Shown one piece after another: positions 1 through 3,309 of a stretch of DNA of 5,658 nucleotides (the first letter of the stretch is position 1; each line of letters opens with the position of its first letter). The DNA comes from Bordetella parapertussis (lineage in GTDB: Bacteria; Pseudomonadota; Gammaproteobacteria; Burkholderiales; SG8-39): positions 1 to 5,658 of the forward strand of contig CAMDRY010000235.1 in NCBI GenBank assembly GCA_945906975.1, in the 5' to 3' direction. Below the pieces are notes generated by a model. It was not told the DNA's origin. It worked only from the letters and a program-made list of their open reading frames with translations, and did not search any database. The translations under genes and the position numbers were made by a program.

Positions 1-277
1 CCATTTGCGTCGGCAGCGCCGGCGCGTCATCAACCTCCTCGAGCCCGAGTCTGCGCGCACGCACCTGGTTGACGAACACGTTGTGCATCACCGCGAACAG
101 CCAGGCCCGCAGATCGCTGCCCTGCCGCCACAAATGAAACTTGCGGCAAGCGCGCTCCAGCGTGTCCTGCACCAGGTCGTCGGCGCGATAGCGGTCGCCC
201 ACCAGCGCACGCGCATAGCGACGCAGGCGCGGGATGTGCTGCGCGATTTCTGGATTCATGGTGCGTGCGGTTTCCAT
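1..277 (-). CDS. ECF-type RNA polymerase sigma factor, N-terminal part (cut by window edge)
   Basis: The minus strand reads 92 open codons from an ATG at 277 to the window edge, so the 3' part is missing. The protein shows sigma-70 region 2: a helix with RYARALVGDRYRADDLVQ (about residues 20-37), then DTLERA, then DLRAWLFAVMHN (core-polymerase binding and -10 recognition), then VNQVRARR. After this comes an acidic linker (LEEVDDAP), as usual between regions 2 and 4. Region 4, which reads the -35 element, lies outside the window. Known for the family: such factors direct RNA polymerase to a small stress or envelope regulon and usually have an anti-sigma partner encoded next door; none is visible here. 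A second in-frame ATG at 259 gives MNPEIAQ and is an equally good start. Neither has a clear Shine-Dalgarno sequence. ECF identity is firm; the subgroup is not determined. Confidence 0.88.
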   Translation of the reverse strand, partial: METARTMNPEIAQHIPRLRRYARALVGDRYRADDLVQDTLERACRKFHLWRQGSDLRAWLFAVMHNVFVNQVRARRLGLEEVDDAPALPTQM

Positions 278-1396: not shown

Positions 1397-2092
1397 ATGC
1401 CACTGTTTCAAAACCTGAGCTTTATCCAATCCGCGCAAGAGCTGACCGATCTGCCGCCGCACGCCGGCCTCGAGATCGCCTTCGCCGGCCGCTCCAACGC
1501 CGGCAAATCAAGTGCGATCAACGCACTCGCCAACCACAACCGGCTCGCCTTTGTCAGCAAGACCCCGGGCCGCACGCAGCTGATCAATTTTTTCCGCATG
1601 GCGACGGGGGACTACCTCGTCGACCTGCCCGGCTACGGTTACGCCAAGGTGCCGCACACAGTGCGCGCGCACTGGCAGGGCCTGTTGGAATTTTATCTCA
1701 CCACGCGCGACCAGTTGTGCGGCCTCGCGCTGATGATGGACGTGCGGCGCCCACTCACCGATCTGGACATCGTCATGCTCAACTGGTTCATCCCCACAGG
1801 CAAACCGGTGCACGTGCTGCTTACCAAGTCGGACAAGCTGACGCCCAACCAAGGCAGGAAAGCCTTGCATGAAGTGCAAGTCGCACTGGCCAAATCCTCG
1901 CCGCTGTTTTCAGCTCAACTGTTCTCGAGCACCAAAAAAACCGGCATTGATGAGGCCGAAGCCGTACTGGCCGGCTGGCTGCCGAACGTGTCCATGGCCA
2001 CGCCTGAACACAGAAAAGAGGTGCGCGAAGAAATTCGGGCGGCCACGACAAGAACGCGGCCCCGGAAGTACGCGGGTACATCCGAGGCCTGA
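1397..2092 (+). CDS. engB: Ribosome biogenesis GTPase EngB (YihA/YsxC)
   Basis: This 231-aa member of the TRAFAC/Era-like small GTPases acts in the cytoplasm in late assembly of the large ribosomal subunit. The GTPase motifs occur in order: G1 GRSNAGKS (31-38), G2 Thr60 in [10 protein letters not shown]3 [10 protein letters not shown] (76-85, the EngB signature), D115-[10 protein letters not shown]4 TKSD (143-146) and G5 SST (177-179). The C-terminus is a basic tail (RTRPRKY) typical of the proteobacterial proteins. The start at ATG 1397 fits family length and gives the usual N-terminus (FxxS, then LP, then EIAFAGRSN). The frame is open back to a TTG at 1292, but those 35 codons run through the tandem repeat and do not resemble the family. 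No clear Shine-Dalgarno sequence precedes the start; a small CTTTG/CAAAG hairpin (1378-1390) lies just upstream. No plus-strand terminator follows the gene; the sRNA terminator on the opposite strand abuts its stop codon. Confidence 0.96.
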
Positions 2093-2093
2093 A

Positions 2094-2129
2094 ATAAAAA
2101 ACCCCGGGCGAAGGGGAATAAGCCCGGGG
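2094..2129 (-). terminator. Intrinsic terminator of the small RNA
   Basis: A perfect 8-bp G/C stem (2129-2122 with 2109-2102) with a 12-nt loop is followed on the minus strand by TTTTTTATTT. On the plus strand the stem is followed by ACAAAAATG, so it would not terminate engB transcripts well. The T-tract directly touches the engB stop codon (2090-2092). Confidence 0.88.
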
Positions 2130-2234
2130 ACAAAAATGCCTTAACAGGATTAAGGCACCCGTTCAGGGAGATGAAACGGGAGACGATCGAAACCGTCTGC
2201 GTGTAAGACGGTGGAATCGGACAAAAAGTTTCAG
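2094..2234 (-). ncRNA. Small RNA with four hairpins and C/U-rich loops, antisense side of the engB-hemB gap
   Basis: The minus strand holds a complete-looking sRNA unit. A promoter at 2268-2241 predicts a start near 2234. Hairpins follow in order: SL1 ACCGTCT/AGACGGT (2212-2192, 7-nt loop); SL2 CCCGTT/AACGGG (2180-2158, loop UCAUCUCCCUG); SL3 TGCCTTAA/TTAAGGCA (2157-2137, loop UCCUG) followed by TTTTT; SL4 CCCCGGGC/GCCCGGGG (2129-2102, loop UUAUUCCCCUUC) followed by TTTTTTATTT. The single-stranded UUUUUGUCC occurs twice (2227-2219 and 2136-2128), a possible Hfq contact. Loops 2-4 expose CUCCCU, UCCU and CCCCUU, which could pair with Shine-Dalgarno sequences. Because the T-tract lies only on the minus-strand 3' side of SL4, the RNA is read in this direction. 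From memory this resembles the Rfam family 'Betaproteobacteria toxic small RNA', found by growth toxicity when cloned in E. coli; I could not run a covariance search. No ORF of note lies inside. The existence of the RNA is well supported by structure; its family name is less certain. Confidence 0.78.

Positions 2235-2268: not shown

Positions 2269-3309
<1,041 letters not shown>

Follow-up and report, generated by a model that had tools for sequence, protein, structure and literature searches.

An anti-hemB RNA between engB and hemB

The window, i.e., the whole stretch of 5,658 nucleotides of DNA analysed here, contains on its minus strand, between the genes engB and hemB, a match to the Rfam family RF02837 (anti-hemB) with a score of 73.8 bits (cut-off 49.5, E 1.8e-16). 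The match is above the gathering cut-off over the entire model and lies upstream of hemB on the opposite strand. Membership of the window RNA in RF02837 is secure; this sRNA family is known but barely studied, and its place in many betaproteobacteria is beside the haem gene hemB. The original prediction had pointed to another family, the Betaproteobacteria toxic small RNAs (RF02278), and had suggested an Rfam search as a check. A covariance-model search gave zero matches to RF02278 in the window at E<=1, which contradicts membership in that family; RF02837 was obtained instead.

The features of the locus are collected in Table 1. The stem of the terminator of the RNA begins 10 nt beyond the engB stop codon, and the predicted 5' end of the RNA is located 107 nt ahead of the start codon of hemB, with the RNA directed away from this gene. 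Elsewhere in the window, at a distance of ~1.9 kb from the sRNA, positions 2-277 (minus strand) encode part of an ECF sigma factor whose sigma2 domain is PhyR-like; it is truncated by the end of the window, and its top NCBIfam matches are families other than rpoE. In addition, a GC-rich hairpin with a U-rich tail, a likely terminator, is present at 455-422 (minus strand) downstream of a dihaem cytochrome c gene; this hairpin gives a sub-threshold match to ctRNA_p42d.

Table 1. Genes, RNA elements and predicted promoter elements around the anti-hemB RNA of the window
Feature	Position	Strand	Basis and remarks
engB/ysxC	1398..2092 (start codon putative; mechanical ORF start 1292)	+	TIGR03598, 229.5 bits; convergent neighbour
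hemB (porphobilinogen synthase)	2305..3309	+	NF006762, 505.8 bits; divergent neighbour of the sRNA
RF02837 anti-hemB match	2094..2183	-	Model positions 1-81 of 81 covered
Anti-hemB sRNA, predicted transcript	2094..2198	-	Start near A2198, ~105 nt; U-tract end +/- few bases
-35 element, sigmaE type, GAAACTTTT	2224..2232	-	rpoE-trained matrix, window p about 0.01
-10 element, sigmaE type, GTCTTA	2204..2209	-	Spacer 14; inside the earlier-drawn SL1
5' hairpin SL1' (AGACGGU-UUCG-AUCGUCU)	2181..2198	-	95.3% of cells paired; both-side changes at 7/7 pairs (alignment A2)
SL2 hairpin, carries the anti-Shine-Dalgarno loop	2158..2180	-	99.6% of cells paired; both-side changes at 2/6 pairs
CUCCCU, anti-Shine-Dalgarno core of SL2	2165..2170	-	Family [UA]CCUCCCUGA; window AUCUCCCUGA
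SL3 hairpin	2138..2156	-	93.5% of cells paired over 7 main pairs
Terminator stem-loop, GC-rich	2102..2129	-	94.5% of cells paired
Terminator U tract UUUUUUAU	2094..2101	-	Sequence

We screened a named set of 80 loci, which had been retrieved by hemB, for the presence of the RNA. RF02837 was found above the cut-off in 57 of them, and all 57 matches are located upstream of hemB on the opposite strand. The gene engB was detected by tblastn in 34 of these 57 loci and went undetected in 23, some of the retrieved stretches being shortened. The loop motif [CT]CTCCCTG was present in none of the 23 named loci lacking a match (RNA's strand, first 2600 bases). At the level of the order, RF02837 was detected at E<=0.001 in 299 of 399 genomes, and above the cut-off in 245. 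The linkage with hemB was rechecked without hemB bias in the best 30 of the order-level loci, retrieved by the RNA alone; their flanks contained hemB in 29 and engB in 28 cases. At one locus (L066), the sRNA is ~1.5 kb away from hemB.

Some genomes contain several copies of the sRNA, and a tandem pair was present in three of nine re-searched genomes. The tandem copies are ~180 bases apart (L155/L164 in genome G252, L156/L172 in G098 and L154/L173 in G053), have no hemB in the retrieved flank and are accompanied by more copies elsewhere in the same genomes.

Structure of the RNA and its conserved loop

The region 2199-2094 folds into four hairpins with a free energy of -42.4 kcal/mol (z -6.39), and none of 200 shuffled sequences was equally stable. 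The longer stretch 2260-2060 gave a z of -5.74, again with 0/200 shuffles. We then used an alignment (A2) of 44 rows, composed of the window, 16 of the 57 named hits and 27 of the 30 order-level loci, with Burkholderia- and Comamonadaceae-type loci omitted. The covariation of the entire structure in A2 was 0.278 compared with 0.137 in shuffles, and none of 500 shuffles reached 0.278. The original prediction is thus supported in part: the minus strand does encode a structured sRNA, and the anti-Shine-Dalgarno loop in SL2 is conserved. The covariation test that had been suggested as a check came out positive for SL2, SL3, the terminator and a corrected SL1.

The four hairpins proposed initially were retained in part. 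SL2, SL3 and the terminator are supported by the fold and by covariation, but SL1 as originally drawn (CCGUCUUACACGCAGACGG) is not: only 43.8% of its cells are paired over the 44 sequences, and 425 of 500 shuffles were equal to it. It is replaced by the hairpin SL1', which shares some of its bases, is supported by covariation and lies outside the Rfam model except for its last 3 bases. When the 27 nt around the Rfam start were folded, the hairpin beat letter shuffles (p<=0.05) in 13 of 19 window-type loci and in 24 of 39 others; the window's own 27-nt hairpin, folded alone, gave a p of 0.065. Thus, a 5' hairpin seems to be common in the anti-hemB family. Because both the -10 element and the 5' hairpin are conserved, transcription is predicted to start near A2198, which shortens the RNA from the ~140 nt assumed previously to ~105 nt.

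At the other end of the RNA, the GC-rich stem is followed by the U tract, as expected for the strong intrinsic terminator that had been proposed. The plus strand after the stem reads ACAAAAA and has no T-run, and the terminator therefore fits minus-strand transcription only. An automated terminator scan reported none; its loop limit was 8 nt, versus a loop of 12 nt in the fold. This loop contains UUCCCCUU at 2118-2111 (minus strand), which constitutes a second C/U-rich single-stranded site. The sequence CCCCTT occurs within the last 45 bases in 39 of the 44 aligned sequences, in agreement with the CCCCUU originally noticed in the last loop.

The proposal that SL3 exposes UCCU did not hold, since its loop consists of only 3 nt (CCU) in the fold and its letters differ among relatives. 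The sequence GUGUGACAGCAAA in the SL3 region is common to the Comamonadaceae-type loci L018, L019, L026, L027, L028, L032, L036, L037 and L060.

The loop of SL2 is the conserved one, and in the window it exposes CUCCCU as first read. Counted over 58 loci, i.e., the 57 RF02837 hits plus the window, the SL2 loop octamer (CUCCCUGA; CTCCCTGA) is present at all 58, this being conservation within the family only and not an independent test, as the hits were picked by a model that contains the loop. CCTCCCTGA is present at 57 of the 58 loci. The sole exception is the window, which has AUCUCCCUGA; its loop carries AUCUCCC, unlike the 57 other loci, in which the loop contains CCUCCC. The pairing of the SL2 stem in the window (2180-2158) is kept via a C-G to U-A change.

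A sigmaE-type promoter upstream of the RNA

A promoter-like pair had been read for the RNA, but a scan of positions 1700-2700 with the sigma70 consensus did not detect a promoter. The conserved promoter is instead of the sigmaE type and is located inside the stretch that had been taken as RNA. The conserved TCTTA within SL1 as originally drawn is better understood as a -10 box. SigmaE promoters are autoregulated, and hence a motif of this type is expected upstream of rpoE. The rpoE gene (TIGR02939) was present in 20 of 20 genomes, and in 21 of 26 more (one below the family cut-off). After five of the 40 rpoE loci had been dropped as unorientable, expectation maximization seeded with a sigmaE-like consensus was run on the remaining 35 upstream regions, which yielded the motif GAACT[AT]-N13-GTC[TA]. 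A matrix was then built from the 14 of these 35 regions with strong sites, the rpoE-like loci L101, L102 and L153 being unused, and was used to scan the 90 nt that precede the RNA. In the window, the promoter thus identified is GAAACTTTT-N14-GTCTTA at 2232-2204.

Matrix sites upstream of the sRNA were found at 30 of the 58 loci at p<=0.05 (2.9 expected) and at 15 at p<=0.01 (0.6 expected). In the controls, the opposite strand gave 3, the downstream region 5 and the region farther upstream 0 sites at p<=0.05 (58 loci each), and 1, 0 and 0, respectively, at p<=0.01. Among the 30 positive loci, 27 have the site at the conserved place, whereas L012, L026 and L074 have it elsewhere. The start of the site precedes the Rfam start by 45-52 bases in the window's group, by 57-58 in Paraburkholderia/Pandoraea and by 65-69 in Cupriavidus. 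In a further 30 loci from genomes outside the training set, which were the best-scoring ones and not a random sample, 24 had a site at p<=0.05 and 17 at p<=0.01. For a list drawn from multi-copy genomes, in which some copies are counted twice, the numbers were 10 and 8 of 20. As the loci are related, none of these counts represents independent events. A site (p<=0.05) was also present at four of the eight distinct extra copies that were scored and have no hemB in the flank (L154, L156, L161 and L175), and therefore the site accompanies the RNA rather than hemB. One copy of each of the tandem pairs of genomes G098 and G053 was scored, with p values of 0.004 and 0.014, respectively.

The other 28 of the 58 loci were above p 0.05. 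In loci of the Comamonadaceae and Roseateles types, the sigmaE-type site is missing or weak, and sigma70-like boxes were seen there by eye, in most of the listed loci in the case of the Comamonadaceae type. The Burkholderia loci L012, L033 and L103 have no matrix site at the conserved place. Low scores were obtained for the autoregulatory site upstream of rpoE itself at L086 and L089 (Burkholderia and Paraburkholderia), L099, L143, L145, L148 and L151, which parallels the weakness or loss of the site upstream of the sRNA.

A strict sigmaE pattern detected a site in just 1 of 22 rpoE loci, and the promoter call therefore depends on the looser matrix. The first regular expression that we used for the promoter (30/58 versus 0.21 expected) was discarded as circular, because it had been composed after viewing the same sequences. 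Judged from the DNA sequences, sigmaE control of the window sRNA is probable, and we are fairly confident that RpoE drives the sRNA in the lineage of the window.

Possible function of the anti-hemB RNA

An orthologue of the RNA has been studied by others. According to the available text of PMC5688073, ncS04 of B. cenocepacia is the anti-hemB orthologue, with a length of 105 nt and a 3' end determined by RACE and dRNA-seq, and Northern blots and Hfq binding are mentioned. Existence, size and Hfq binding are thus reported for ncS04. The same text assigns RF02278 to ncS03, ncS05, ncS27 and ncS62, and not to ncS04/anti-hemB, and the growth effects that it describes belong to the RF02278 RNAs. Anti-hemB is also named in a table of sRNAs in the accessible part of PMC3521395. 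In the B. cenocepacia expression study, the sole source of expression evidence that we found, the anti-hemB RNA showed no response as far as the text was available, and stress control was not seen. The absence of the site from its conserved place at the three Burkholderia loci could explain this result, and for the same reason it leaves the group of the window undecided. The authors of a paper on B. cenocepacia start sites state that they found no sigma-factor-specific motifs. hemB is absent from the main text of the 2010 paper on 104 structured RNAs, as well as from the available part of the review PMC10987360. A limited search, with most subscription journals outside its reach, yielded no published example of a betaproteobacterial sRNA that depends on RpoE.

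The window RNA is like Burkholderia RNA 7/anti-hemB (RF02837), or ncS04 as far as the text of PMC5688073 describes it, in its full-model match, its place and strand relative to hemB, its SL2 loop, its terminator and its predicted length of ~105 nt. Beyond the RF02837 model, the window has the conserved 5' hairpin and the sigmaE-type promoter upstream. Like the double-hairpin RNAs of RF02278, it has unpaired C/U-rich stretches that face ribosome binding sites (PMC5688073, same text); unlike anti-hemB, however, those RNAs have two hairpins and several dispersed homologues per genome. The B. pertussis sRNA S17, which is homologous to the RF02278 RNAs, represses mRNAs via their ribosome binding site regions, according to the available part of PMC11722255; therefore, sRNAs of such a general design do act in the betaproteobacterial class.

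The hairpin loop also resembles the CUCCUCCC-type anti-Shine-Dalgarno loops of the alpha-r14/cuckoo RNAs, such as NfeR1. We take the hairpin loops of CcsR1-4 to be of this same CUCCUCCC type. These alphaproteobacterial RNAs are also under the control of stress sigma factors (PMC8307010, accessible part), and the available texts of PMC10746234 and PMC3927594 deal with alphaproteobacterial RNAs that share this loop motif. The three hairpins of NfeR1 all carry CCUCCUCCC, and its promoter is of the sigma70 type (PMC10746234), whereas the anti-hemB RNA has another gene context and belongs to another bacterial class. The cuckoo/alpha-r14 arrangement of three hairpins each with CCUCCUCCC is absent from the anti-hemB RNA, which has one such loop, in a variant form in the window. 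MicA and RybB are SigmaE-dependent sRNAs of enterobacteria. The anti-hemB RNA is like them in having a sigmaE-type promoter, here by sequence only, and Hfq has been reported for ncS04.

No target was identified among the hemB, rpoE and porin starts or among exact complements of the loop before ATG. The hemB starts matched the SL2 loop no better than chance (3/58 at p<=0.05), and the rpoE translation starts slightly better (7/33 at p<=0.05). Since both fits are too weak, we rejected the idea that the SL2 loop targets hemB or rpoE directly. For the porin starts, which bear on the repression of outer-membrane protein mRNAs typical of sigmaE-dependent sRNAs, the fit was also weak (one-sided p 0.03; 24 of 25 loci, with some start codons visibly wrong). 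Exact loop complements before ATG were found 10 times in 9 of 33 genomes, versus one match for a reversed control pattern; judged by eye, the genes downstream are unrelated and have no member in common.

The explanation that we consider best, and rather likely, is that the window encodes a sigmaE-activated, Hfq-dependent anti-hemB sRNA of the anti-Shine-Dalgarno type. An unlikely alternative in our view is that the anti-hemB sRNA is under other control, with GGAACTT/TCTNA being recognized by a different ECF sigma factor or constituting an activator site beside a housekeeping promoter. The loci that fall short of p<=0.05 for the element would fit such a situation, as would the partial ECF sigma factor gene in the window and the sequences TATCAT/TATGAT, which by eye lie beside the element or replace it in Paraburkholderia- and Burkholderia-type loci. 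However, the rpoE promoters of the same lineages agree with the element in both half-sites and in spacing. The name of the RNA suggests an antisense RNA that acts in cis against hemB, which we regard as improbable. The constant position of the RNA opposite the hemB strand was found in loci retrieved by hemB, and hemB is also adjacent in nearly all of the loci retrieved by the RNA, but the RNA starts before hemB and is directed away from it (though a long leader of hemB might reach into it), lies far from hemB at L066, has extra copies without hemB in the retrieved flank, and carries a loop that misfits the hemB starts.

The remaining two explanations deny the RNA either its independence or its family. 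The short distance to the engB stop codon would suit a mere terminator or attenuator region of engB without an independent RNA; the missing T-run on the plus strand, the covariation in four hairpins, the conserved minus-strand promoter and the visibility of the orthologue on Northern blots, according to the available text of PMC5688073, make this very improbable. To membership in the toxic RF02278 family we give practically no weight: C/U-rich loops are common to both, but the covariance search favours RF02837, and the same text lists these RNAs as different from anti-hemB.

For the sigmaE-activated, Hfq-dependent sRNA that we favour, we infer RpoE use, stress induction, loop pairing and targets, as follows. 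Envelope stress would free RpoE, which would transcribe the minus strand from the promoter at 2232-2204. The RNA of ~105 nt would have the 5' hairpin at its start and the U tail at its end, with CUCCC exposed by the SL2 loop and UUCCCCUU by that of the terminator. Hfq would bind it, and the SL2 loop could pair with the purine-rich Shine-Dalgarno regions of target mRNAs and so block their translation. Pairing with Shine-Dalgarno regions is, on its own, a reasonably likely mode of action; for RpoE drive, Shine-Dalgarno pairing and Hfq jointly, the balance is about even. Somewhat more tentatively still, anti-hemB may be the sRNA branch of the sigmaE response to envelope stress in betaproteobacteria. 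Driven by RpoE and dependent on Hfq, the RNA, whose cuckoo-like CUCCUCCC loop hardly varies, would repress a wide range of mRNAs; it would be an analogue of MicA and RybB without being related to them, and would have come under a housekeeping promoter in Comamonadaceae and Burkholderia.

In the literature that we searched, no function is attached to the name RF02837, and as far as these searches go, three points are new, namely the promoter of the sigmaE type, the 5' hairpin with its covariation and the corrected transcript start. A sigmaE-type promoter in several betaproteobacterial lineages, together with a loop octamer present at all 58 loci and a 5' hairpin that the model does not contain, provides this family with a testable role, namely that it may be an RNA output of the envelope-stress response.
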